DNA from: Isosphaeraceae bacterium
GTDB lineage: Bacteria > Planctomycetota > Planctomycetia > Isosphaerales > Isosphaeraceae
Assembly: GCA_026004735.1 (NCBI GenBank)
Contig: BPJS01000001.1
Coordinates: forward strand, 558,001-622,000
DNA length: 64,000 nucleotides
Direction of reading: 5' to 3'
The notes below the pieces were generated by a model that did no database searches, had not been told where the DNA came from, and was given only the letters and a program-made list of their open reading frames with translations. The translations under genes and the position numbers were made by a program. Below are positions 39,480-53,104 of this stretch, in pieces. Positions within the stretch are counted from its first letter, which is position 1. Every line of letters begins with the position of its first letter.

Positions 39480-39764
39480 ATGAGCAATCCGACCACGCCG
39501 GAGCCGAGCCACGATCCCAGCGTCTCGGCTGGCTCGTCCGGGCGTTCGCCGATCGAGGATCTTCTGGACCGACTGGTGTGCCCGATGGCTCATGCGCCGC
39601 TCCGCCGCGAGGGCGAGTGGCTGGTTTGCACCCGTTGCGGGCCTCGCTTTGCCATCGTCGACGACATCCCCAACATGATCATCGAAGAGGCAACGCTGCC
39701 GGAAGGCTGCGCTGACCTGCGCCGGCTTCCCTGTGTGCTGGCCGGCGATGCGCGGCTGGATTGA
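39480..39764 (+). CDS. Trm112 family protein
   Basis: A 94-residue protein carrying a Trm112/YcaR-type zinc-ribbon-like domain after a 28-residue polar N-terminus: LVCPMAHAPLRREGEWLVC, TRCGPRFAIVDDIPNMIIEEA. The second half (IVDDIPNMI) is the family hallmark. Of the two usual CxxC pairs, the second (CTRC) is present but the first reads CPMA, so only three ligands remain. Trm112 proteins in eukaryotes and archaea activate methyltransferases; bacterial members have no agreed role. A short extra tail (LRRLPCVLAGDARLD) follows. Divergent from Minf_1886. Confidence 0.85.
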   Translation: MSNPTTPEPSHDPSVSAGSSGRSPIEDLLDRLVCPMAHAPLRREGEWLVCTRCGPRFAIVDDIPNMIIEEATLPEGCADLRRLPCVLAGDARLD

Positions 39765-40037: not shown

Positions 40038-40571
40038 TTACCCGCCGAGAAGCGGCAGGCTTCGATCGACGAGGTAGGCGATCCGGCCGTCGAGCGTCAG
40101 CCGGATCCCTCCGGCTTTCGGGTCGTGGATCCAGGTGCCTTTGGTGACGCGCGATCGGCCGGCCTCAACCAGGCCGGTTAGGTGGGTCGTTTCGAGCAGA
40201 TTCTGAACCTGGGTCCCGAGGTGGTCGAGTCGCTCGTAGGCTTTGGCCAGTTCGTGCAGGTTCAAGACCAGGCTGACGGTGAACTCGAGGGTTCGTGTCG
40301 CCAGCCGGCCGCGTGGGTCGGGCTGTTCGCTCCAGGACCCCGGAATCAAGCTGGCGTAAGGACGACCAGGGGGCAGAGGTCCTGGCAACTTGGGATAGGG
40401 AAAGTCCACTCGCTCGAAGAGCCGTGCGGATCGAAGCTGCGCGACCAACGCCTCGTAGACCCGGCGATCGCTCAACTGTGCCGAAGAAGCCCCGGCATCG
40501 CGGCGGTTCTGGAACGCGCCGAAATAGCTGGCCGCGAAATAATGCGGCGCGAAGTAAGTGGAGAGGGACAT
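40038..40571 (-). CDS. phage tail-terminator/completion-like protein
   Basis: A 177-residue protein and the last gene of the phage-like operon. The first 20 residues repeat aromatic pairs (YFAPHYFAASYFGAF), a pattern seen at the start of various small phage structural proteins. The rest (RRVYEALVAQLRSARLFERVDF, then EFTVSLVLNLHELAKAYERLDHLGTQVQNLL) resembles the alpha/beta layout of tail-terminator proteins, which cap the tail or join it to the head. I cannot prove the family from sequence; position and length fit. It ends with WIHDPKAGGIRLTLDGRIAYLV, beta-rich. Confidence 0.5.
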   Translation of the reverse strand: MSLSTYFAPHYFAASYFGAFQNRRDAGASSAQLSDRRVYEALVAQLRSARLFERVDFPYPKLPGPLPPGRPYASLIPGSWSEQPDPRGRLATRTLEFTVSLVLNLHELAKAYERLDHLGTQVQNLLETTHLTGLVEAGRSRVTKGTWIHDPKAGGIRLTLDGRIAYLVDRSLPLLGG

Positions 40572-40589
40572 ACTGGTTCGGCTCCGCGC

Positions 40590-41396
40590 TCAGGTCGGGA
40601 GGACGAGGGTGACGATCGGGCGATTGCCTTCGGCGTCGGTCACTGCTGTGATACGGGTCGTCGTCGAGTTGGCTCCCAGGAACGTGATCGTTCCGGTTCC
40701 GGCGCCACTGACGACGCCGCCGAGAGCCGCCAGCATCGGAGCCAGCGCTTGGCGGGCGTTGATCCCCGGTTCGACCTCGATCGAGTCGAGTCCGCTCGGA
40801 GCGAGTCGATAGTCGGACTTGTCCAGGTTGCTGCCGACGGTCACCGGGTTGACGACGCTCGAGACCGGGCCGCCGTCGAACGTCGAGCGGCTGGAGATCG
40901 TCGCATCGACCAGGCCCAGACGAGCCCCGGCCGTGTTCAGGCCGTAACTGCCCGGCAGATCGACCGCCCAGGGGTCGAAGCCGCCATTGACGGCATACGG
41001 ATTCCAGACTGTCAGCGGAATCAGGGCATCGCAGTCCATCGCATTGGGTGGCCCAAAGATCGAGATCAGCAGACTCCGCGCGCTAGGAACGGCGAAGCGT
41101 GCGTCGGGCAGATGGATCTCGTAGACCCCACGGTGATTGGTTGGATCGACCTCCTGGAATCGACACGACCCGGCCGAAGGTGCCTGGTACTGACCAAGCG
41201 TGGCGATCGGCTCGATCGTCGAGTTGGCCGAACGGTACACTGTCGGCGTCGATTCGGTGTCGGCAATAGTGGCGATGACCAGCCCGGTGGTCGAGGGCGT
41301 CAAACCAGTCAACCCGCCTCCGTCGTCGCGCGTCTTGTCCAAGATCTTGACCCGAAGCACCACACCCGTCTGACCGTTCTGAAAGCTGATCAACAT
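40590..41396 (-). CDS. phage structural protein, beta-rich (tail fibre or baseplate-like)
   Basis: A 268-residue protein from ATG 41396, 10 bases after the tailspike stop. The first 110 residues form Ig-like strands (QNGQTGVVLRVKILDKTRDD, TTGLVIATIADTESTPTVYR, then RFQEVDPTNHRGVYEIHLPD), reminiscent of BppU-like N-terminal domains of baseplate upper proteins. The middle holds a W-P-Y stretch (VWNPYAVNGGFDPWAVDLPG), and the end is Gly/Thr-rich beta structure (GTGTITFLGANSTTTRITAV). Role inferred from position between the tailspike and the tail-terminator-like gene. An alternative GTG start lies at 41441. Confidence 0.55.
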   Translation of the reverse strand: MLISFQNGQTGVVLRVKILDKTRDDGGGLTGLTPSTTGLVIATIADTESTPTVYRSANSTIEPIATLGQYQAPSAGSCRFQEVDPTNHRGVYEIHLPDARFAVPSARSLLISIFGPPNAMDCDALIPLTVWNPYAVNGGFDPWAVDLPGSYGLNTAGARLGLVDATISSRSTFDGGPVSSVVNPVTVGSNLDKSDYRLAPSGLDSIEVEPGINARQALAPMLAALGGVVSGAGTGTITFLGANSTTTRITAVTDAEGNRPIVTLVLPT

Positions 41397-41406
41397 CGGA
41401 GGAACC

Positions 41407-44097
41407 CTAGAGCGAGGTAGAACCCGCGGGAAAACCGCCACGCAAGGCCCGGCGAATCAGCTCGCGTGGACGAACGCGACGCACCACAACCACATCCTGC
41501 CACGCAACCGGAGTTCCCGATCGCCTGAGGCTCAGGCGAACGGTCCCGGCGCGCGTGGGGGTGTACGTGAACGAACGCGGCTCCGCGGTTTCCGCCCAGG
41601 AGAGTTGAGTCGGAATCAGAATTCCTCCACCGCTACCATCCGATAGCTCGATCGATTCCGAAGCGGGCGCCGATGGCGTCACCGTGAACGCCAAGGTTTC
41701 GCCGACCCGCCCGACCGTTGGCCCGGAGAGCTGATAGCTGACTGAACTGGTCTCGCGATAGTCGCTTGGTCCGTAGAAGCCAAATGGGGAGCCGTCGATG
41801 GCCGGCAAGTTAGTCGGTGTGTACGCTGCTGCGAAGGCCGCGTAGGCCCGCTCGGCCCGGATCCAATCGGGCCACTGGTTCGGACCCCGGGTCCGGATCG
41901 CCTGATAGAAGCCCGCCTCGTCGGCGGCGACTCCTTCGGCCATGGCGTAGTCAGCCAGACCGTAGTTTGCGGCGACGAAGGTGGGAACCGCCGGATCGAT
42001 GTAGAGGCTGTCGACATCCTGCCCCAGATTCTGCCAGGCCTGGAAGCTGATCGCGCCCGGCTGAAGCTTGCTGAACGTGATCGGCGTGCCCGGCTGGGGG
42101 TGAGAGTGAACATTCTGACGCGACGTCAGCCATGAGAGGTCGGTCCCCTCAAGCTGGGGCAGCTTCAGAATGAGTGTCTGATTGTTTTCGGGGTCGCGGC
42201 GGTCGCCGACCAGGATATTCTTCTCCAGTAGTGCCGAGACCCCCGGGCGGGCTCCCTCCAACTGGATCCCGCGTCCATGGTCGTAGGAAAGGTTGTGGCG
42301 CATCACTGCATAATCCAGCGCGCGATACTCCACCCTCGAGATGTCGAAATTGGCCGCGAACCCGATCGGCGCGGTGGCGTTGTGGTGCGCGCTGATGCAA
42401 AACTCAAGAACCTCCGAGTGCGGAGTTTCGGAGAATCCAACCTCCAGCCGTGGCCCATGGCCACGTGCGCCGATCGTCAGGTCTTCGCCGTGCAAGGTGA
42501 CGCATTTGCGAATGTATCCGCCGCGCATGTGGAAGTGGCCGGCCACGGCATTGCGCGCGTAGATGTTGTAGGCCATCACGCCGCCGCTGCGTAGCTGCGA
42601 GCCGTGGCTGCCCCCGCGCAGCAGCCAGCTTCCCCACATGATCGACTCGAGCGCTCCGTTCTGGATGTAGACGTTGTGACTGTAAAGGTTCCTGACTCCT
42701 TCCGAGCCTATGTAGCCGTTTCGATCGAACGCCGTTTCGCTGTAGAGCACCCGGTCCGTATCGTGCGCATGCGCGCCTTGGACGCGGGCGCTGCGACCCT
42801 CGGCGTCCGACGTGTGGCAGTTGAAGACCGAGCAGCGATGGATCATCACGGCGCCGATCCGATACCCGGTGTCGCCGTTGGTCGCGATCGTCGAGTCGTC
42901 CATCAGGCAGTCCGACACCATCAGGCAGTCGGCCCCGGTGTTGCACCAGATCTTTCCATCGAGGACATGGAGCCGGCGAACCAGAATCGTCCCGGCGTTG
43001 AACGTCATTCCGGTGTGAAGGCCGACGAAGTCCCGCTTCTGGAGAGTGGAAAAGACCAACAGCGGTCGAACGCCCGGATCGGGTGCACCGGTGCCATAGT
43101 CGTGCCAGTAGTCTTCGAAGATTAGCGGCGTATCGCGGCTACCGGCGATCCCCCATTTCTGCGTGAGCGGCGTCACGACGTCGAACCGATCGCCGCGTAG
43201 CAGCCGCACTCGAGACCCCGAACTGTTCGGCAAAATCGCCATGGCGCCGTTCAGGGTCGCCTTGGGCTGTTCGAGAGTTCCCGGGTTCGCGTCGGAGCCA
43301 CGACTGCTGGATACGTAGACGACCCGGGCGTTGGCGGAGAGCTGAAACCGGTCCGTGGTGAACCCGTCCGACTCCACGACCGATGTGTTCTCCACGATGC
43401 CCGCCGTGACCGCACCACTGAGGTTCCCCCGATCGTCGCGGATCAAACCCTCCGGCGCAGTGACCGTCAGGCCGGTCTCCTGATAGATCACTCGACTGCT
43501 CTCTGGGATGAGCCAATACGTCATCCAGGAACGAGCCGTTCCGGGAACTTCGAGCGGATCGGCGAACGACAGGGAAGTCACGGTGAATGAAGTGGTTCCT
43601 GAGGGAATATCGCGCGCGATCAAGCGAAGGTCGTCCGGCTGAGCGCCTGGCGGGGTCATGTAGAGCCGTCCGGTCAATCCTGCCGGCACGGCAAAGGGAA
43701 AGATCACGCGGACTTCCCGTTCCGTCGCCGTGATTTTGAGGGCTGTACCCGAGTTGACGCTCGTAAACTCCCCCGAGATGCATCCGACCCAAACCGCGTT
43801 CCCATTCGCGTCCACATACGTGAGCCGCAGAAAGTAGTCCCCGATGGGAATCGTGCTGGCGGCGTTGGATCGCACCTGGAGGCTGCACGGTGGCATGTTG
43901 AAGTTGACCGACGTCGCCCCCAGGAACTCACACTCTGCCACCCCCTTCGAGATCACCAGTCTCTGTCCGGCCATGTGGCCGGGCATCCAGTCCGGGAAGG
44001 AACCTCCGCCGGGAAGGTCCGGCAACGTCGTGTACCGCACCCGCAGCACCCGGCCGTCCATCAAGACCGTGGCTTCGCTGAACGGAAGAATCGCCAT
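41407..44097 (-). CDS. right-handed parallel beta-helix tailspike-like protein
   Basis: An 896-residue protein from ATG 44097 (an in-frame start at 44157 adds 20 residues). The N-terminal 250 residues are beta-sandwich-like (TIPIGDYFLRLTYVDANGNAV). The centre begins ARVVYVSSSRGSDANPGTLE, the usual opening of right-handed beta-helix polysaccharide-degrading domains (xxVxPxGsDxnxGT), and continues with ladder-like repeats rich in H, N, V and G (MIHRCSVFNCHTSD, LYSHNVYIQNGALESI). The end has an Ig-like domain (FTVTPSAPASESIELSDGSG) and a basic tail. Tailspikes bind and often cleave surface glycans. Catalytic residues cannot be placed here. Confidence 0.7.
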   Translation of the reverse strand: MAILPFSEATVLMDGRVLRVRYTTLPDLPGGGSFPDWMPGHMAGQRLVISKGVAECEFLGATSVNFNMPPCSLQVRSNAASTIPIGDYFLRLTYVDANGNAVWVGCISGEFTSVNSGTALKITATEREVRVIFPFAVPAGLTGRLYMTPPGAQPDDLRLIARDIPSGTTSFTVTSLSFADPLEVPGTARSWMTYWLIPESSRVIYQETGLTVTAPEGLIRDDRGNLSGAVTAGIVENTSVVESDGFTTDRFQLSANARVVYVSSSRGSDANPGTLEQPKATLNGAMAILPNSSGSRVRLLRGDRFDVVTPLTQKWGIAGSRDTPLIFEDYWHDYGTGAPDPGVRPLLVFSTLQKRDFVGLHTGMTFNAGTILVRRLHVLDGKIWCNTGADCLMVSDCLMDDSTIATNGDTGYRIGAVMIHRCSVFNCHTSDAEGRSARVQGAHAHDTDRVLYSETAFDRNGYIGSEGVRNLYSHNVYIQNGALESIMWGSWLLRGGSHGSQLRSGGVMAYNIYARNAVAGHFHMRGGYIRKCVTLHGEDLTIGARGHGPRLEVGFSETPHSEVLEFCISAHHNATAPIGFAANFDISRVEYRALDYAVMRHNLSYDHGRGIQLEGARPGVSALLEKNILVGDRRDPENNQTLILKLPQLEGTDLSWLTSRQNVHSHPQPGTPITFSKLQPGAISFQAWQNLGQDVDSLYIDPAVPTFVAANYGLADYAMAEGVAADEAGFYQAIRTRGPNQWPDWIRAERAYAAFAAAYTPTNLPAIDGSPFGFYGPSDYRETSSVSYQLSGPTVGRVGETLAFTVTPSAPASESIELSDGSGGGILIPTQLSWAETAEPRSFTYTPTRAGTVRLSLRRSGTPVAWQDVVVVRRVRPRELIRRALRGGFPAGSTSL

Positions 44098-44184
44098 GGT
44101 TGCCTCAGTCTGAAGGATCTCGGAGGCCCCAGTCTGCTGGGGCCGGCCCGAGACCACAACCGCTCGTCGAGTCCTCAGGCCCGG

Positions 44185-44991
44185 TCAACCGGCCCGCCGG
44201 AGACCGGGAAACCACCGCACCACGTTGCGAGGGGCTGGTGGTGGCGGCGGTGGAGGTGCCGGCACCCCAAGAGCGCCGGCATACACGACCCGCCGCGGAG
44301 AGTTGCCGCGGATTGCCCCAAATCGTCCCGACCAGACGTCATTGAGCAGATCCACCATGACGCCCTCGGCCAGAACACCATCGAAAACCATCGCCGCCCC
44401 GATCCGTCCGACCCACGGATTGGCGGGTTGACCGTTGTTGTCATAAGCACCGATCCAGAGCGGCTCCGTGCCCGGTACATGGATCACCGGTGAGAGAACC
44501 GTCTGTACCGAAAGCCCCGACGCTCCCAGCGCATAGAACGTCGCTCCTTGTCCATTGGTAAAGCTGACCCCCACGGCCACGTACTGGCCGATCGGCAACG
44601 GGAGCGACGTACTCAGGTTGGACGACATCACCCGCAACGCGAGGTTGCCCGTCGTGTTCCGGAAGAATTGCCAGCCGTTCAGGCCAACCCGCTTGCCGAC
44701 TAGCGTCCGCGCTGTCCCACTGTCCACGGCTTGCGCGAGGGCGACGACGCTCACATTTTCGGGACCGAGGTACGCTCCAAACAAAACTCCACTGGCCACG
44801 GCCAGCGGGAAGTCCAGCTCCGGACCCCATGGTCCTGAAGCCCAGGACGTCCCGCCCACAAAACCGCCCGACCAGCCGCGGGGATCGGCGACCGTCACGC
44901 CGGCCCCCTCGTTGAGCGGCGCATAGAGCCGACACTTGGATGGCATCCGGACAGGCCGTGACACGGCCCGCAGCGGCTTGATGAGAGGCAT
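44185..44991 (-). CDS. LamG/concanavalin-A-like domain phage protein
   Basis: A 268-residue protein from ATG 44991 (MPLIKPLRAVSRPVRMPSK). The core has LYAPLNEGAGVTVADPRG and DVWSGRFGAIRGN flanking WIGAYDNNGQPANPWVGRIGAAMVFDGVLAEG, which is the strand pattern of LamG/laminin-type jelly-roll domains (the W-x-G-R-I-x-x-x-x-V-F-D block). It closes with a Pro-rich linker (PAPPPPPPPAPRNVVRWFPG) and a short basic tail. Such domains in phage particles bind glycans or decorate capsids. It lies between the small beta protein (8 bases) and the tailspike (87 bases). Confidence 0.65.
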   Translation of the reverse strand: MPLIKPLRAVSRPVRMPSKCRLYAPLNEGAGVTVADPRGWSGGFVGGTSWASGPWGPELDFPLAVASGVLFGAYLGPENVSVVALAQAVDSGTARTLVGKRVGLNGWQFFRNTTGNLALRVMSSNLSTSLPLPIGQYVAVGVSFTNGQGATFYALGASGLSVQTVLSPVIHVPGTEPLWIGAYDNNGQPANPWVGRIGAAMVFDGVLAEGVMVDLLNDVWSGRFGAIRGNSPRRVVYAGALGVPAPPPPPPPAPRNVVRWFPGLRRAG

Positions 44992-44998
44992 CGCAGTT

Positions 44999-45361
44999 TT
45001 ACCCGATCGAAGTGAGCTCGTGGCCGACCGCTTCCACGGTGACCGGCTGCGCCGTGTTGCCCGTGAAGACGACCCGAATCGCCAGGATTGGCGCCGGAAT
45101 CTCAACGCAGAAGTCGTACACCCCGCTGGCGGCGGTCCCGGCACTGAAGCGGGTGACATCACGCCATGTCACCTGATCCACGCTGGCCTGCACCACCATG
45201 TCACATCCGACCGTCGGACCCGTCGTTCCATTCGTCACCCGCGCCTGGATCACCGCTCCCAAGGCGGTTGCGAGATTCCAGGTTCCGCTGGTGGTCGTTG
45301 CTCCCGCCGCGTTTGTGACCGCCGCCACAAGCGTCCGCGCCGTTTTGGTCGCCATCGCCAT
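44999..45361 (-). CDS. small beta-rich phage protein
   Basis: A 120-residue protein with no recognised family. It is Ala/Thr/Val-rich and reads as a beta sandwich: VIQARVTNGTTGPTVGCDMV, VQASVDQVTWRDVTRFSAG, then FCVEIPAPILAIRVVFTGN and VTVEAVGHEL. The layout with W in VTWRDVTRF resembles carbohydrate-binding or head-decoration domains. Two ATGs (45361 and 45355) are possible starts. It is followed by the LamG-like gene after 8 bases, so the two may form a surface complex. Confidence 0.5.
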   Translation of the reverse strand: MAMATKTARTLVAAVTNAAGATTTSGTWNLATALGAVIQARVTNGTTGPTVGCDMVVQASVDQVTWRDVTRFSAGTAASGVYDFCVEIPAPILAIRVVFTGNTAQPVTVEAVGHELTSIG

Positions 45362-45404
45362 AGGTTAGCCCCCGAGACCGAACACCCATTCGTTCTCCGC
45401 ACTC

Positions 45405-46067
45405 TCACCGGCTCAACCGCGTTCCGGAACGGCTCACTCGTTCCGAGCCGGCACGACCCATCGCCACCATCCGCGCCAAGCGGTCTTCCACTTCGACCCG
45501 AAACTGCTCGGCCCGCGCGGTCATCAAGTCGCCTGACGCTTGAGACACCGCCGCCTGGTAGGTGGCGCGCAACAGCTCGGCCACCGTCAGGTCGCGAAGC
45601 CGGACGATCGATCCGGCATCATGCCCGATCGAGCCATCTGCCCAGAGCAGACCCAGTCTTCCAGCCACTTCCCGGCTGGCACGCTCGAGTCGTGGACCCA
45701 GATCGGCGACCAGGAACTCAACCCCGGTGGCTCCCCCCGGCGGCCCCGGCGGTTGGCCAACCCTCGCCGGTTCACCGGGACGCCTCAGCTCCATCGCTCC
45801 ACCCGCCACCGAGACGACAATCAGTAGCTCACCCGGATACGACGAACCATTCGCCGCCTGGCGAACCCGCACCAGGTGCCCCGGCCTGACCCCCTGAGCT
45901 TCAAAATCCACGAGCGTCGACCGAAGCGTCCACCGCGACCCCGCCAGAAATCCACCATCGGGGCCCGTCGCGAGCGGCGGCTCAAGTTCCAGCAAGGCCG
46001 CATAGTCGGCCGGGGCGCGCAGGGCGACGTCCTCTTCCGTCGCATAAAAGCTTTGCACCACACTCAT
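45405..46067 (-). CDS. phage head-tail connector-like protein
   Basis: A 220-residue protein from ATG 46067 (MSVVQSFYATEEDVALRAPADYA); an in-frame GTG at 46109 adds 14 residues. The opening YATEEDVALRAPADYAALLE resembles the start of head-tail adaptor proteins. A beta-rich centre (RWTLRSTLVDFEAQGVRPGHLVRV, ELLIVVSVAGGAMELRRPG) and a helical C-terminus (LRDLTVAELLRATYQAAVSQASGD then AEQFRVEVEDRLARMVAMG) follow. Located directly downstream of the major capsid gene, where connector genes usually lie. Family assignment is tentative. Confidence 0.5.
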   Translation of the reverse strand: MSVVQSFYATEEDVALRAPADYAALLELEPPLATGPDGGFLAGSRWTLRSTLVDFEAQGVRPGHLVRVRQAANGSSYPGELLIVVSVAGGAMELRRPGEPARVGQPPGPPGGATGVEFLVADLGPRLERASREVAGRLGLLWADGSIGHDAGSIVRLRDLTVAELLRATYQAAVSQASGDLMTARAEQFRVEVEDRLARMVAMGRAGSERVSRSGTRLSR

Positions 46068-46142
46068 CGGATCTGATCCCCGTCGAGTCCGTCGGTCGGC
46101 GTGGACCACGCCGACCGACGGTGTGCCGGTTGCTGGCTCGGA

Positions 46143-47282
46143 TCACGCCGCGAACGCCGTAATCCCCTCGACCCAGGCGTGGTGCGCTTCGTTCTCGACC
46201 TCGATCGCACCCTCGGCCACCCAATCGCCCTCGATCGCGTCGCCCCGCGAGCCACGCGGATTCCAGAACTCGTTGCGCTTCATCCGCAACCGCACTTCCG
46301 ACGAGGTCAGCGCAATCGCTGTCGAGGGCTTGAGCAGCGGAGCCTCGATCAACGAGATCCCGCCCAGGAACGGAGCCTCGAACACATCGATCGGCGTCCC
46401 GAAGATGTTCGAACCCGCGTCAATCCGCTGCGCTGCGTGTCCCCAGATCGCCAGCCCCGTCATGAAGTTCGAGGCCACGATCAGCACGTCGGGGTCGCCG
46501 CCAGCCCGCCGGCACCGCTCCAGCGTGTCTCGAATCAGATCCGACGGCTTGTACGCTCCGGCGTTCACGGGCGCGGTCGTCCGATTGGTCGTCAACAACG
46601 CCCGCAACCCCTTTTGCTTGGGACGGTTGGCCACCTCTGGCGCTTCGCCCAAACCGTAGTACGAGGTGTACTCCATGTCATCCATCAGATTCTGCAGCGC
46701 CTCCATCCGAACCTGATCCAGCGGCGTGTGCAGACCCAGCGACGCCTGGTAACCGGCCGTCGCTTGCAGCGCGCCGCCCACCTGGACCGGATGCTGCCAG
46801 GTCTGGCAATACTGGAGCGTTCCCGTTGGTCGGGCCGCCACGCCGAGTTGATCCACCTCCGACCCGCTCCGGCTGTTGCCAATCAAGGTCAACACGTCAT
46901 CACTCGCTGCGGCTGCCGGGGTCGTCCCCTCCACACCTCGCCGCACGGTGATCACGTGCGTCATCGGGTTCGGAGGCAAAACCAACTCCACCCGCTCGCC
47001 CGACGGCAGCTCCAGCACGTCGCCGTTCATCAACGCGCTGGCATCGGTCAAGGTCAGCGTCGTGTCCCCCGCGGTCGCCGCGGCCGCGAGCGTGCAACGA
47101 CGGCTCCGATACGCGCGGTTGACCATGCTGAACGTCGTCGACGCGACGGGCAGCCGGGGCACCCGCGTCACCAGCGGACACCGATTCACAAACCAGTTGA
47201 TCGCCACCACATGAATGTCATTGCGGATCTGGGCCAGGTTGTCAGCCGTGCCCTGGATCCCCTGCAAATATGCGTTTGGCAT
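46143..47282 (-). CDS. major capsid protein, SU10/DUF5309-like
   Basis: A 379-residue protein from ATG 47282 behind GGAGAG; an ATG at 47351 is an unlikely alternative. It opens MPNAYLQGIQGTADNLAQIRNDI and contains AAAATAGDTTLTLTDASALM with GDVLELPSGERVEL, TVRRGVEGTTPAAA, and the C-terminal LIVASNFMTGLAIWGH and RMKRNEFWNPRGSRGDAIEG. This pattern fits the SU10/DUF5309 group of HK97-fold capsid proteins, in which a small GDxL beta domain is inserted near residue 80-130. No protease cleavage site can be told. The scaffold-like gene lies 140 bases upstream. Confidence 0.7.
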   Translation of the reverse strand: MPNAYLQGIQGTADNLAQIRNDIHVVAINWFVNRCPLVTRVPRLPVASTTFSMVNRAYRSRRCTLAAAATAGDTTLTLTDASALMNGDVLELPSGERVELVLPPNPMTHVITVRRGVEGTTPAAAASDDVLTLIGNSRSGSEVDQLGVAARPTGTLQYCQTWQHPVQVGGALQATAGYQASLGLHTPLDQVRMEALQNLMDDMEYTSYYGLGEAPEVANRPKQKGLRALLTTNRTTAPVNAGAYKPSDLIRDTLERCRRAGGDPDVLIVASNFMTGLAIWGHAAQRIDAGSNIFGTPIDVFEAPFLGGISLIEAPLLKPSTAIALTSSEVRLRMKRNEFWNPRGSRGDAIEGDWVAEGAIEVENEAHHAWVEGITAFAA

Positions 47283-47422
47283 AGACTCACTCTCCGTCGA
47301 TCGACGTACTCGGTCTTCATCGCTTGCTCCTTCCCCGATCGTGGGGATCATCCCACCTCGAATTCCTTCCGCGGGCCGCGTGCCTCGCGGCGCCTCTCCG
47401 GGATGACCTCACCTGGTTCGGC

Positions 47423-48028
47423 TCACCGCGTTCGCCGCCCCGAGAGGCCAATCGCCGCCCATCCCTCCGGCTGCGACCCCAACGCCTCGCGCCACCTCCT
47501 CACCAAAGACTCGCCTAGCGTCTCCGCAGGACGGCCCGCCACCGGCCGCGCGTCGTTCTGAGCCCCAACCGCTCCTGAGCCACCCCTCGACCGGGCCGGC
47601 CGGAAATGCGCATATTCCGCACTCGCCAGCCGTTCCTCGACCGCCCGATTCAGCGCCTTTCCATCACGGCTCACGACCCGATACGCACCCTGGTCCTCGA
47701 CCACATCGAACTCATCCCGCCACAACTTCAACAACTGGCTCGCCGCTCCAGGCACCAACTCCCGCCCCGAAAGCGCGACCGCCAACTCCCGCTCGAGCAA
47801 AACCTGCCGAAAAATCCGCTCACGCTCAGCGAGCAATTGCTCCCGCTCTGCAACCAGCCGCGCCAGCTCGACCTCCCGCTCCGGCGCCCGATCCTTCGAT
47901 CGGTCATTCTCTTGTTGATCCGCTCCCACCCGCCCGGAAGTCTGTGCTTCCCCTAACTCCGGCCGGACCACCTCAGCCTCGCCTCCCTCTCCACCGCTCG
48001 CATCCCGTAGACAACGCGGCAGGCTCAT
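47423..48028 (-). CDS. scaffold-like coiled-coil phage protein
   Basis: A 201-residue protein starting at ATG 48028 behind GGAGGTGA, close to a perfect ribosome site. It has a polar, charged start, then a long coiled coil (EREVELARLVAEREQLLAERE to LLERELAVALSGRE), a short folded part (LLKLWRDEFDVVEDQGAYRVV) and a C-terminal region with Arg-rich stretches. Helical, charged and immediately upstream of the capsid gene is typical of phage scaffolding proteins, but scaffold sequences are not conserved enough for more than a positional call. Confidence 0.6.
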   Translation of the reverse strand: MSLPRCLRDASGGEGGEAEVVRPELGEAQTSGRVGADQQENDRSKDRAPEREVELARLVAEREQLLAERERIFRQVLLERELAVALSGRELVPGAASQLLKLWRDEFDVVEDQGAYRVVSRDGKALNRAVEERLASAEYAHFRPARSRGGSGAVGAQNDARPVAGRPAETLGESLVRRWREALGSQPEGWAAIGLSGRRTR

Positions 48029-48046
48029 CGTTCATTCACCTCCCCG

Positions 48047-48202
48047 TTACCGACTCCGCCACCATTGACACGCATCCTCGGCAACTCCCAGCAGCAGCGG
48101 CAGAGCCACCGCCCATCCCACCAACAGGAGGACAACCATCGCCCCGACCGCTGCCACGACCGCCCCTGAATCGACAACCAGCTCGCCCGCCGCCCCGCTC
48201 AT
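48047..48202 (-). CDS. 51-residue single-span membrane peptide in the phage operon
   Basis: An ATG at 48202 follows GGAGGG by 6 bases and opens 51 codons to a TAA at 48047. The product has a polar start (MSGAAGELVVDSG), one long hydrophobic stretch (AVVAAVGAMVVLLLVGWAV then LPLLLGVAE) and a short charged end (CQWWRSR). It sits between the portal stop (14 bases) and the scaffold start (18 bases) with no room for anything else, so packing, ribosome site and hydrophobicity all support it. Holin-like size, but position inside the head genes is unusual. It is otherwise unassigned. Confidence 0.6.
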   Translation of the reverse strand: MSGAAGELVVDSGAVVAAVGAMVVLLLVGWAVALPLLLGVAEDACQWWRSR

Positions 48203-48216
48203 GACTCACCCTCCAC

Positions 48217-49761
48217 CTACAAGCCGGCTCGACGCGCCACGTAGGACTCGATCTCGGCGTCGCACCGCGCGTAATTCGCATCGCTTAAGCCGGGCAGACA
48301 CAACCGCATCAGGCGCATCAGCAGCAAACCCTCCGTAATCGGCAGCTCACCGGCCCGCGCCGCGACCGCTTGAAAATCCGATGCCGCCTGGGCTACATCC
48401 GAGACCGTGTACAGGTCAAATTCGCTCGGATAGACGATCTCAAACGGCTCCTCGTTGTCCCGAGTCCATTCCCCATCACTCACGACAAGCAGGACCATCC
48501 GCGCGGCTTCGGTCTCCGCCCGCGCCAGCGTCCGCGCGATCTTCGAGAGCCGGTTATTCCCATCCGCATGATCGATCATCTTGGCCAGGCCCGACTGGTA
48601 CGGAGCTCCTTCCACCCCAGACGGACGCACCAGCGCCGAGTCCCGATCCACATCCCCGCGCAGATCCTGCTTGTTCCGCCGCAGCGACTCGGCTCCTTCT
48701 TTGGGAAACGCAACCACGTCGAATCCTTCGTACGTGGCCGTCCCCCCCTGCACGTTCTTCTTCTTGGGCAGCAACCAGCTCGGCCCGATCGGAATCGTTC
48801 CGTCCGGCTGAATAAAGTCCTCCGGTCCCTGCAACAACGGATGCGCCTGCGTCGTATCCGACAGAATCAATTCCGAGTCGCGGTTGTAATACTCACGCTG
48901 ACGCTCCGCGATCCCCTCATAGCGCGATTGACCCACGTTCCGACACCGCGGCTTACGCGCGTCAAACACCCGAACGATCGGAACCCGCCGAAACCCATGA
49001 CTCCCAGAGGCCAGCCGCTCGCCTTCCGCGTCCAGTAGCGTCCATCCTTCCTCCGTCCAATGCCGATATCGCTCCTCCGTACCCGTCGGCGTCTCAACCA
49101 CCTCCCGCACCAAGCACTCCGCATACCGTCGCCCGGTCTGGTCCAACCGCCACCAAACCAGGTTCTCCGGGAGAATGTGGCTCGCAACGCAACGCCCCAG
49201 CCCCAACCGCGCCACATCCGCCCGCGTCGCGATCGTTTCTCCCTCCGGAGCCGGCGGATGATCAAAACACAGGTCAATCTGCCCCAGAACCAGCAACAGC
49301 GGCGCGATCGTCTCCGACATCCAGGCATCGATGGTCGTCCCGCAGCCATCCACATCCGCCCACCACGATTCCAAAACCGCCGGACCCTTCCGCCGAACCT
49401 CACGCGCATAAATCCGCGACAAATGCGTCTCCACCGCCTCCGCCACAAACGTCGGCACCGGCGTACGCGCTCGCCTCAGCTCGTAGTCGTCGTCCGTCGC
49501 ATACGCCGCCGGCTCCATTCCCGGCCCGGAAAACGGATGACCCGCCACCCCTCCCATCGGCTCCCGCGGATCCGGATACTCACGCTTGTGCCGCACCAGG
49601 TTGCGGATCGGCAAGCCCCGCCGATCCACTCCGTAGACCGCTTCCCGATACCGCTCGCCACCCTCGTACGAGTCGAGCAACCACCGCCAGCGCAAGTGAT
49701 GCTCACGCCACTCCGGATGACGTCGACGGACCAGCTCGTAATGTGCGTTCTTCGTACGCAT
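48217..49761 (-). CDS. phage portal-like protein (DUF4055-like)
   Basis: A 514-residue protein from ATG 49761, just after the terminase stop (49764). The opening (YELVRRRHPEWREHHLRWRWLLDSYEGGERYREAVY) and the ELRRARTPVPTFVAEAVETHLSRIY segment are the layout of portal proteins of the DUF4055 kind; ETIAPLLLVLGQIDLCFDHPP and GIAERQREYYNRDSELILSDT follow, and the second half ends in a helical region (TLARAETEAARMVLLVVSDG). Portals form the twelve-fold DNA entry ring. Length and position (terminase, portal, scaffold, capsid) agree with this. Membership is not certain. Confidence 0.65.
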   Translation of the reverse strand: MRTKNAHYELVRRRHPEWREHHLRWRWLLDSYEGGERYREAVYGVDRRGLPIRNLVRHKREYPDPREPMGGVAGHPFSGPGMEPAAYATDDDYELRRARTPVPTFVAEAVETHLSRIYAREVRRKGPAVLESWWADVDGCGTTIDAWMSETIAPLLLVLGQIDLCFDHPPAPEGETIATRADVARLGLGRCVASHILPENLVWWRLDQTGRRYAECLVREVVETPTGTEERYRHWTEEGWTLLDAEGERLASGSHGFRRVPIVRVFDARKPRCRNVGQSRYEGIAERQREYYNRDSELILSDTTQAHPLLQGPEDFIQPDGTIPIGPSWLLPKKKNVQGGTATYEGFDVVAFPKEGAESLRRNKQDLRGDVDRDSALVRPSGVEGAPYQSGLAKMIDHADGNNRLSKIARTLARAETEAARMVLLVVSDGEWTRDNEEPFEIVYPSEFDLYTVSDVAQAASDFQAVAARAGELPITEGLLLMRLMRLCLPGLSDANYARCDAEIESYVARRAGL

Positions 49762-49763
49762 CG

Positions 49764-51320
49764 TCAAAACACCTGCCGTGCCGGAATTCGCGGAAGTCGA
49801 TCCGAGGGACGACGGCCCTCCGGGTACACCGCCCTCAAACCACCCCGCAACGCATCCACCAGGTCTTCATGGGGATGCTGCGGGTCCTCGGGATAGTCCT
49901 GCCACTGACCACCGCGACGTGCACGCCGATAATGCGCAAGCGCGTTCAACAACGACGTACAACGCGGATGGATCCTCAACCGTGCCGTTCCATCCGCCGG
50001 TTGAATCAACGACTCCAACAACGCCAACCCGTCCGCCACTGACCCGCGCGGCCACGCCCTCAGCATCCGCAAGCCCGCACGCTCGTATTCCCCGAGCACC
50101 GTCGGGCCGATCGACGTCCGCGCCCCACCCGCCGGGTCCACCCACACCGCATCCACCCGCCCCCCGCTCAGCCGCGCGGACAACTCCACCAGTGCCAGCG
50201 CGTTCTGTTCCGCCGATACGTTCTCCGCCAGGTAGTCACCGATGACATGCACCCGTTCCCCCTCACCCGGATAATCGCGTCCCCGTCCCCCAACGATCTG
50301 AAAAAAAACCGCTCCCGTGAACACGCCAGGATCAATCGCAAGCTGGACCGAAAATCGCGGATCGTACTCCGCCCCTTCATCGACAACCCGCTCCGCCCGA
50401 AATTCGGCAAACCACAGCCCTTCCGCGCGCGGACCTCGGCTCAAATAATCCGCCTCGAACGTCCGGCGACTCGTCGCCCGCAACTTCTGGATCAACGCAT
50501 CGATCGCATAATGCCCATTCGATCGCTTCGCCTTGGGACGGCCCAGCGGATCTTCCGATCGGTCCTCGTGACACCACGGCATCAACGGACACTCCGGACA
50601 CCGCTCCAGCTCCGGCCCACTTCGCTCCTCCGGACACCGCTCGAGAACCTCAAAGATGCAAAACGAGTAATACGGCAGCTCGCCCCCACACGCGCGCTCC
50701 ACCAGCGCACTCATCGGTCCACCCACCCGATGCCACGTCGAGGTCATCACCACCGATGCGGGCTCACCCCGCACATTCATGCACATCCCCATCGCTGCCT
50801 CGCGCAGCTCTGGGTCGATCTCATCCACTTCGTCCAGCTTCAGGCACGGTACATGCGGCCCCCGAACGCTCGTACTCGACGCCGCCAGAATCTTGACCTC
50901 CGACCCATTTCGATACCGCGCTCCATCACGGAGCAGCTTCTCAAACACCGACTCCTGCTGGCCCATCCTCGCCAATTCGCGTAACGCCAGATAAACCTGC
51001 ATCGACTGCGCTCGGCTCCCGCCCAGGATTCGCGTCGCCAGCCCCTCCGTACAACGACTTCGTAAATGCGTATCCAACGCCGAAAGAAACGACTTCCCGC
51101 CTCCTCGCGGACCATGGATCAACACCAGGCTAGGCCGCCCTAGAAAAATATCCTGGAAAAACTCCCACGGCGGCGTATGGCCCCGGCACACCCGAGCCGT
51201 TGCGAGCGTGATCTCCAGCTCGTGCCGAATCGTATGCAGAAGCTGCCGCGCCGTGCGTGGCCGATGCCTCCCCTCTCCCCACTCTCGCCCGTGCTTCTGC
51301 CGCGATCGAAACGACGCCAT
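49764..51320 (-). CDS. phage terminase large subunit
   Basis: The DNA-packaging motor, 518 residues from ATG 51320 (GTG 51329 is possible). ATPase domain: Walker A IHGPRGGGKSF near residues 68-78, Walker B CLKLDEVDE near 159-167, coupling motif VVMTSTWH near 190-197. Nuclease domain: QLAIDPGVFTG with the first acidic residue, and YPEDPQHPHEDLVDALRGG at the end. Between them is a Cys-rich insertion with Cys229, 241, 244 and 250 (C-x11-C-x2-C-x5-C), possibly metal-binding. The protein matches large terminases in layout; no small terminase gene is recognisable next to it. Confidence 0.8.
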   Translation of the reverse strand: MASFRSRQKHGREWGEGRHRPRTARQLLHTIRHELEITLATARVCRGHTPPWEFFQDIFLGRPSLVLIHGPRGGGKSFLSALDTHLRSRCTEGLATRILGGSRAQSMQVYLALRELARMGQQESVFEKLLRDGARYRNGSEVKILAASSTSVRGPHVPCLKLDEVDEIDPELREAAMGMCMNVRGEPASVVMTSTWHRVGGPMSALVERACGGELPYYSFCIFEVLERCPEERSGPELERCPECPLMPWCHEDRSEDPLGRPKAKRSNGHYAIDALIQKLRATSRRTFEADYLSRGPRAEGLWFAEFRAERVVDEGAEYDPRFSVQLAIDPGVFTGAVFFQIVGGRGRDYPGEGERVHVIGDYLAENVSAEQNALALVELSARLSGGRVDAVWVDPAGGARTSIGPTVLGEYERAGLRMLRAWPRGSVADGLALLESLIQPADGTARLRIHPRCTSLLNALAHYRRARRGGQWQDYPEDPQHPHEDLVDALRGGLRAVYPEGRRPSDRLPRIPARQVF

Positions 51321-52015
51321 GCGGTTCACCCACCCAACCCACGACGACCCCCCACCAACTTCACCGGTCCGCCCGCTCGGATCCCCCCTCCTCGAGGCTC
51401 CACGGTTCGTTCACCCTCCTCCGCTCCACAACCTGAACAATCCCCCGCCCCGTTCCGACGTATTAGTCCATCCATCCCATTTGCCTTCCGGTTTCGGTCC
51501 CGTCTGCGGCTCCCACACGTTTTGCCCCTCATGCCGACACTGACCAGTCCGCCCAATCGACCCTTCAATCCCAAGCCGCGCGCCAGCTTCGTCGCACGAC
51601 GTCCTGAAGAGCCTCCAGCGACTCCCCGAGGTACTCCAACAGCGTCCCACCGGGATCGGCCTTCGACCCCAGCCGTGGCTCGACGCCCCGGCCACTTATC
51701 CAACCCACCCCATGCTAATCGCTCTATCGTGTGCGGATGGCGACCCTCTGTTGCCAAATCCCGATATGAGTCGGCGATTCAGAGTTCATAACACGCCGTG
51801 CCACTTCGGACCCAGAGCTGCCAAGCACTCTTTCCTGCTTAGACCCCCCCTCTCAGCGCCAAGACATTCCGCCGCCGTCGCAGCGAACGCACTCACTCAA
51901 CCCAACGCGATCGCCCCATCACCCCTCGGCGAGCGGTCCCCAGCCCATGTCGGGCAGCACATGATGTCCGAGGCCAGCATCGCCTTGGCTCCGGCCACTT
52001 AGGCCGGTCCGTCCC
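51321..52015. other. gap upstream of the terminase; unconvincing short frames only
   Basis: This is where a small terminase or regulator would be expected. On the minus strand a 47-codon frame (GTG 51708 to TGA 51565) has host-like third-position G+C and ends TLLEYLGESLEALQDVVRRS, and a longer 94-codon frame ends at 51411 (CRHEGQNVWEPQTGPKPEGK). Neither has a good ribosome site or a match I know. A frame ending at 51326 overlaps the terminase GTG by GTGA but has poor codon composition. The region may hold the degraded remains of a gene. No clear promoter was found for the phage operon. Confidence 0.4.
51991..52007. terminator. hairpin after egtD
   Basis: CCGGCC-ACTTA-GGCCGG, 6 bp with a 5-base loop, starting 9 bases after the egtD stop on the minus strand. 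No T-run, so termination is inferred from position. Confidence 0.4.
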
Positions 52016-53053
52016 TCACACCCGGCGCCACATCTGCACCCGATACCACCCAGCCTCGTCGGTCCAGGCCAACTCCTCGACAAATCCTGACCCAGCCGCC
52101 AACTCTTGCAGTTCCGTGATTGTATATTTATGCGAATTCTCTGTATGGATTGTCTCTCCTTCGCTAAACGCGGCCACCATGCCCAGTTTGTCGATCCGGA
52201 CCTGCTGCTCGTGCCGGCTCACCAGGTGCATCTCAACCCGGCTCCGCGCCGCATCGTAGTGGGCTCGATGGATAAAGGATCCTACATCAAACCGGCCGCC
52301 CAGCTCTCGATTGATCCGCAACAGCAGATTCTTGTTGAACTGAGCCGTCAGACCGCTTGCGTCGTTATACGCCGCCTCCAGAATCGCCGCATCCTTCACC
52401 AGGTCGGTACCCAACAACAGCCGATCACCCGCATGACTGGCGTCGTGTATGTGACGTAATAACGCGATTGCCGAGTCCCGCTCATAATTCCCCAGGCTCG
52501 AACCCAGAAAGAGAAACAAGCGCGGACACTCGCGCCGCTTCCTGAGCAGATCGAGCGCCGCTCGATAATCCCCCACCAGCGCCGTCACGCGTAGTCCGGC
52601 TAGCGCATCGGTAAGAGCCTCCGCCGCCACCTTCAGCAACGGTCCCGATACATCGATCGGCATATACTCAATCGTTCCAAAACGAGCGCAGGCGGCCTCC
52701 AAAAGCCATCTCGTCTTCCGCGAACTTCCACTGCCAAGTTCGACAATCACCGGCGTTGTTCCAAACCGTTCCACCATCTCGCGCCGATTCGTCCTCAACA
52801 GACGCTCTTCGATCCGCGTCAAATAGTATTCGGGCAGATCGCAGATCCGCTCAAACAGACGCGACCCTGCCGTGTCGTAGAAATACCGGCAGGGCAACCA
52901 CTTCGGCATCGAACCCAACCCAATCCGGACCGCCTCGGCAAAGCAATCATCGGTCTGCCCGCCCACCACCTCAACGAGCCGTACGCGCTCCGCTCGTCGA
53001 TCTGCGTCAATACCCAACCCTCGTCCGGTACCGACCGCCTCCCCATCTCTCAT
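52016..53053 (-). CDS. egtD: L-histidine N-alpha-methyltransferase EgtD
   Basis: Trimethylates histidine to hercynine, the first step in ergothioneine synthesis. About 345 residues from ATG 53053 behind GGAGA (GTG 53056 adds one). Motifs seen: KWLPCRYFYDTAGSRLFERI and PEYYLTRIEERLL at the start, VIVELGSGSSRKTRWLLEA for SAM binding, MPIDVSGPLL, FLFLGSSLGNYERD, LGTDLVKDAAILEAAYND, then FIHRAHYDAARSRVEMHL and TENSHKYTITEL. All are typical for the DUF2260/EgtD family. No egtB, egtC or egtE is adjacent, so later steps, if present, are elsewhere. Confidence 0.93.
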   Translation of the reverse strand: MRDGEAVGTGRGLGIDADRRAERVRLVEVVGGQTDDCFAEAVRIGLGSMPKWLPCRYFYDTAGSRLFERICDLPEYYLTRIEERLLRTNRREMVERFGTTPVIVELGSGSSRKTRWLLEAACARFGTIEYMPIDVSGPLLKVAAEALTDALAGLRVTALVGDYRAALDLLRKRRECPRLFLFLGSSLGNYERDSAIALLRHIHDASHAGDRLLLGTDLVKDAAILEAAYNDASGLTAQFNKNLLLRINRELGGRFDVGSFIHRAHYDAARSRVEMHLVSRHEQQVRIDKLGMVAAFSEGETIHTENSHKYTITELQELAAGSGFVEELAWTDEAGWYRVQMWRRV

Positions 53054-53104
53054 CACGGCTCTCCGGACCGGACACCAAACCGCTCGTTCAAGGACGATCC
53101 GACA

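Follow-up and report, generated by a model that had tools for sequence, protein, structure and literature searches.

Phage-type head genes lie between housekeeping genes in the chromosome of an Isosphaeraceae bacterium (Planctomycetota), and no tail tube or hub genes accompany them. This raises the question of what benefit a host may draw from a virion head and its packaging motor without a tail. The window analysed here is a stretch of 64,000 nucleotides (GenBank assembly GCA_026004735.1, contig BPJS01000001.1, positions 558,001 to 622,000), to which all coordinates refer. A preliminary description had seen in it either a remnant prophage or a domesticated particle system. Gene transfer agents (GTAs) are viriforms of caudoviricete origin, endogenised often at several loci and co-diversifying with their hosts; by definition they also package random host DNA, belong to an element that exceeds the capacity of the capsid, and deliver DNA to cells (PMC9662315). 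Capsid-forming PICIs (cf-PICIs) have been described with capsid, portal, connectors and terminase and no tail (PMC10690885). GTAs are established in few lineages only, and none from planctomycetes was found in the literature searched, most subscription journals being outside its coverage. With a probability of roughly 0.72, we consider the island to hold the head and neck genes of a virion gene set that is endogenised and passed on vertically in the Isosphaeraceae, a GTA-like domesticated element.

Results

Gene content of the island

Ten long open reading frames (ORFs) occupy positions 40038-51329, every one of them intact and on the minus strand. The terminase large subunit (TerL; 49764..51329, 521 aa) matches phrog_2 (E 2e-12) and combines an ATPase with a C-terminal nuclease; its motifs comprise Walker A (GPRGGGKS), Walker B (LKLDEVDEID), MTSTWHR and three nuclease Asp motifs. 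Alignment with homologues places Walker A within the first 109 residues of the ORF, which extends to 51329. All of these motifs, MTSTWHR among them, are kept in nearly all copies of the family, and for the Walker motifs and the nuclease Asp residues this includes every tail-less copy. The Pfam model Terminase_6N found no match in the bacterium's own genome despite the presence of this terminase, which the model evidently misses. Adjacent to TerL lies the portal gene (48217..49761, 514 aa; phrog_145, E 2e-35), 58-71% identical to most family homologues. It is followed by a 51-aa protein with a single transmembrane (TM) segment (48047..48202, minus strand), which the preliminary description had not listed and whose position between portal and scaffold is conserved, and by the scaffold itself (47423..48028; 182-201 aa depending on the start; phrog_206, E 1e-4), likewise conserved in position. 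The major capsid protein (46143..47282, 379 aa) belongs to the SU10 type, as proposed earlier (Pfam SU10_MCP, PF17236, E 1e-34). Family models thus identify terminase, portal, scaffold and capsid, and the island is real and intact.

The 220-aa protein encoded next (45405..46067) matched no family model; it is named connector or adaptor-like from its position, directly after the capsid in most loci of the family. A 120-aa protein (44999..45361) is recognised as an ORF only and has no assigned role. The following 268-aa protein (44185..44991) had been called LamG-like, a label which neither Pfam nor any convincing PDB sequence match supports. Fam18 (40590..41396), also of 268 aa, has a conserved C-terminal part of about 110 aa, 56-65% identical to its counterparts at the same position in g7, g11, g15, g16, g18 and g21 (genera are numbered, the window genus being g1). 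The last gene (40038..40571, 177 aa) found no family-model match. Its product is homologous to the terminators of the family, and the best named PDB matches of its AlphaFold2 model (pLDDT 82.6) in Foldseek are p142 of phage T5, gpU of lambda and the RcGTA terminator. We therefore predict a tail terminator of the long-tail type, and the tail-terminator-like character first read from the sequence is confirmed by fold.

The island contains no integrase, replication or lysis gene. A TerS-like HTH gene was not found upstream of the window terminase, though relatives have one: small HTH proteins of 51-86 aa, candidates for TerS or a regulator, stand just before the terminase in several genera (L048, L050, L051, L052, L054, L041, L224). 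Searches with NCBIfam and PADLOC gave nothing useful.

Spike-like gene and small membrane peptide

A spike-like protein of 916 aa with a probable beta-helix middle is encoded at 41407..44157 (minus strand). The notion of a tailspike is plausible insofar as a low-confidence model shows strand repeats and the positional counterpart at locus L058 matches Pect-lyase_RHGA_epim, a pectate-lyase-like beta-helix family, above cut-off; that model of the window protein, at pLDDT 53, is too poor for naming a fold. Tailed relatives, too, carry spike genes between connector and terminator, an interval that head-fibre genes could fit equally well. An orphan spike paralogue occurs among housekeeping genes elsewhere in the same genome (G000:C1:1872173-1874384; L266, L269); one frameshift puts its N-terminal and main parts into different frames, whereas the island copy is intact.

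Counterparts of the TM peptide (39-53 aa, motif xxP[LIM]xxG[LFY]) occupy the same position in eight other genera of the slot lineage, weakly so in g18, and are kept in tailed and tail-less genera alike. Its dN/dS within g20 (Tautonia) is high for such a short gene. A pinholin-like role or that of a membrane anchor would be a guess.

Chromosomal slot

The slot is edged by a Trm112-like host gene (39480..39764, plus strand; PF03966) and by egtD (52016..53056, minus strand; PF10017, E 3e-105). Beyond these, TruB and HflX accompany Trm112 on one side, and PFK, S4 and an inorganic pyrophosphatase follow EgtD on the other, so that the housekeeping flanks noted at the outset are borne out by Pfam on both sides. 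Neither tRNA nor Rfam RNA was found at the island, nor were att-type direct repeats at its boundaries. Its mean GC3 of 0.755 falls inside the range of the adjoining host genes (mean 0.806, minimum 0.675), which answers the call for a comparison of composition with the host.

The order terminase-portal-scaffold-capsid-connector is conserved across the loci of the family. The slot between trm112/g38894 and egtD/PFK holds the cluster in g1, g5, g7, g11, g15, g16, g20 and g21, that is in at least eight genera, a count which includes halves split between contigs and some genera showing one edge only. Trm112 stands at the same edge in g5, g7, g11, g16, g20 and g21, egtD with PFK in g20 and g21. The look at related genomes that had been suggested thus finds the same locus occupied well beyond this strain. 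Other positions occur as well: the cluster adjoins uvrA (fam28) in the Paludisphaera-like g17 and lies near dnaN/gyrB in g18, these gene identities being read from sequence. Apparent empty sites are seen in two g19 genomes, where egtD stands beside the fam61/g38894 genes, and in g14, where one gene separates PFK from trm112; the island is missing from both.

Distribution of the cluster

The capsid was detected in 32 of 45 Isosphaeraceae genomes (21/26 of good quality; 16/21 genera), nearly always as a single open copy. Relatives' genes were called with a simple codon-score caller, and several genomes are fragmentary. Among 398 genomes of the class the capsid profile was positive in 27, all Isosphaeraceae; the remaining class, sampled with about 360 genomes, yielded none. 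Against 50,697 phage records the capsid had no match and the portal a single weak one (23% identity). Named carriers are Tautonia sociabilis, Paludisphaera soli and Aquisphaera insulae, beside metagenome-assembled genomes (MAGs) of the family. Since 13 of the 45 genomes, some of them incomplete, are without the capsid, the element is dispensable. The host genus nearest to the window by rpoB (g3, genome G004) has no copy in the slot and a divergent one elsewhere.

Several relatives depart from this pattern. Divergent second head clusters lie beside the main copy at L033 (G029), L040 (G030) and L062 (G026), and are probably related true prophages. The terminase at L039 (G013) lacks the ATPase motif sequences of the family while its C-terminal part aligns; its ATPase part has apparently been replaced or fused. 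In g6 a tail hub occurs without a detectable SU10-type capsid (L190 in G009, L087 in G008), in G009 together with other tail-module genes, possibly through a head swap or as a separate phage.

Co-descent with the host and selection

A tree of terminase, portal and capsid from 29 genomes shares 19 of its 26 splits with the tree of rpoB, the single marker that stands for the host phylogeny; the maximum in 2000 permutations was 4. A Mantel test between both gives r = 0.47, where permutations reach 0.24 at most. Within the tail-less g20 the dN/dS (NG86) of terminase, portal and capsid amounts to 0.06-0.2, within g18 to 0.06-0.11. Between the window and its relatives it is 0.13-0.26 for the same three genes, values that are rough for such distant pairs, whose synonymous sites approach saturation. 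Looser constraint is seen in connector, scaffold and terminator (0.1-0.56). The capsid and terminase, for which this check had been proposed, are well below 1, and the ratios indicate strong purifying selection on capsid, portal and terminase. Vertical inheritance and domestication are thus supported jointly by the shared slot, the congruence with rpoB and purifying selection.

Tail and lysis modules of relatives

In g5 (L175), g7 (L173), g11 (L058), g15 (L174) and g21 the same slot contains a long-tail module. It sits between terminator and trm112 and comprises genes for a tube-like protein, for several small ones and for a hub-like protein of 700 aa; "tube" and "hub" are names inferred from size, order and the look of the sequence, as no family model names either. 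The hub-like protein is present in 25 of the 45 genomes and missing in g1, g16, g18 and g20. Profile searches with positive controls in g7 and g11 found nothing at E<=1 for hub, tube or the papain/C39-like peptidase in the genomes of these four genera. For the window the searches covered the whole 4.82-Mb single-contig genome. The lack of a tail tube read from the island alone therefore extends to the entire genome, and the search for lysis genes elsewhere in it, recommended earlier, recovered no peptidase of the relatives' type.

Where lysis-type genes exist, their placement varies. In Paludisphaera-type genomes the peptidase and a small TM protein adjoin the terminase, and in g5, g9, g11 and g21 a peptidase/holin-like module resides at a separate conserved locus. 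This second host locus (L185, L186, L187, L188) encodes a holin-like TM protein, fam11 and the peptidase, which is papain/C39-like with an invariant Cys and His (QxGDC...WGHC...SWG). In g19 (L189) the module is kept in a genome without capsid.

The smallest set is found in g20: terminase, portal, a 39-aa TM peptide, scaffold, capsid, f6 (in 2/4 genomes as called), connector and terminator, with no spike, tail or known lysis gene. Because relatives carry tube and hub in the same slot and the terminator is of the long-tail type, we interpret the tail-less state as loss. Parsimony requires at least two changes of tail state on the rpoB tree and three on the head tree; a single clade of tail-less heads is neither demonstrated nor rejected (AU p 0.25). 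The short-tailed particle first envisaged does not agree with such a terminator and such neighbours, and on these grounds podovirus-like ancestry was rejected; the genes point to a long-tailed ancestor with tube, hub and terminator. In the window, a GTA-like element that occurs across the family is reduced to its head and neck.

Discussion

Relation to known systems

With GTAs (RcGTA, BaGTA and BhGTA, all viriforms) the island shares head and packaging genes of caudoviricete origin that have become a fixed, vertically inherited part of the chromosome, several loci in relatives, and the absence of replication and integration genes. Family models and Foldseek attest the caudoviricete derivation of the particle proteins, endogenisation is full (the second peptidase locus existing in relatives, not in the window genome), and descent is vertical (19/26 splits with rpoB). 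It differs from GTAs in its SU10-type capsid and, in the window, by the lack of tube and hub genes and of any recognisable lysis gene. We write "GTA-like" and not "GTA" because these are sequence features of a family-wide element known here from its genes alone. The window version may plausibly act as GTAs do, although one that has neither tube nor hub and no known lysis gene would be out of the ordinary. No relation to the Rhodogtaviriformidae (RcGTA type) was found: the capsid there is of the HK97 type, here SU10_MCP only, and the island holds no RcGTA-type family match. SU10-like phages have the PF17236 capsid family in common with it, but none of the phage records matches the island capsid.

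Proposed function

Most likely the product would be a tailless (or tail-borrowing) DNA-carrying capsid which serves the host and not a virus. In our best guess, cells would build DNA-filled, capped heads with polysaccharide-binding spikes. A procapsid would form on the portal from scaffold and capsid; the terminase would pump in host DNA without a recognisable TerS-like specificity gene; connector and terminator would cap the neck; spike proteins would coat the particle and bind surface polysaccharide; and export could proceed via the 51-aa TM peptide or when a cell occasionally dies. RcGTA carries head spikes (PMC7296036) and binds extracellular polysaccharide (PMC10218006). DNA might leave the particle by tailless delivery or through borrowed tails, or the particle might have a non-transfer role; GTA delivery of the ordinary kind is unexplained in the window, which has neither tube nor hub and no recognisable lysis gene. 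The window genome does encode ComEC, a DNA-uptake protein which GTA recipients in Rhodobacter need. More tentatively, a family-wide domesticated system may on at least two occasions have discarded tail and known lysis genes, leaving a minimal head as a tailless DNA-packaging compartment in the service of the cell.

Alternative explanations

A capsid domesticated for a role other than transfer, be it an intracellular container for DNA or protein, a released decoy or a lethal or altruistic factor, seems to us somewhat unlikely. It would suit Tautonia, where a set without spike, tail and known lysis gene is nevertheless under purifying selection. However, the conserved ATPase and nuclease sites of the terminase imply DNA packaging and not an empty shell, and the cluster has no gene for a cargo enzyme. 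The same features separate it from encapsulins, likewise virus-derived shells kept by cells: the island retains portal and scaffold genes as well as a terminase whose catalytic sites are conserved, and has no cargo gene.

We regard as unlikely a cf-PICI-like satellite which would form its own heads and depend on a helper phage for tails, with the terminator as the docking point. In gene content the island agrees with the published description of cf-PICIs, which make heads, a packaging motor and a neck but no tail (PMC10690885), and the divergent second head clusters of G026, G029 and G030, related tailed elements and likely true prophages, are a possible source of help. Yet the island is immobile: it has no integrase, regulator or replication module, its locus is fixed over genera and its tree strictly vertical, and the window genome has no homologue of the known tube or hub proteins that could be borrowed.

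Partial gene sets are usual for prophage remnants, and the missing tail, lysis and regulation genes could be read as decay, with leftover genes surviving by chance. We think this distinctly improbable in view of the slot shared by eight genera, the congruent trees, the absence of att repeats, integrase, integration scars and decayed frames, and dN/dS ratios that stayed far below 1 once the tail was lost. That related phages integrated repeatedly and independently at a preferred site, as related elements at uvrA (Paludisphaera-type) and dnaN/gyrB (g18) might suggest, is hardly credible at a site without integrase or tRNA and with a head phylogeny tracking that of the host within and between genera. 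The selective retention postulated in the preliminary description holds up on its main points: shared locus, low dN/dS, no att repeats, and nothing like the relatives' lysis genes elsewhere in the genome.

Significance

The GTA-like reading suggests a domesticated gene-transfer-like particle in Planctomycetota, and a selected cluster of the SU10 type would represent an independent domestication. The cluster spans most genera of the Isosphaeraceae, with culturable carriers in Tautonia, Paludisphaera and Aquisphaera. Isosphaeraceae-type clusters are also found in two public MAG records (L205, L208) titled 'Candidatus Kuenenia stuttgartiensis'; these look mislabelled, their genomes being placed in the Isosphaeraceae.
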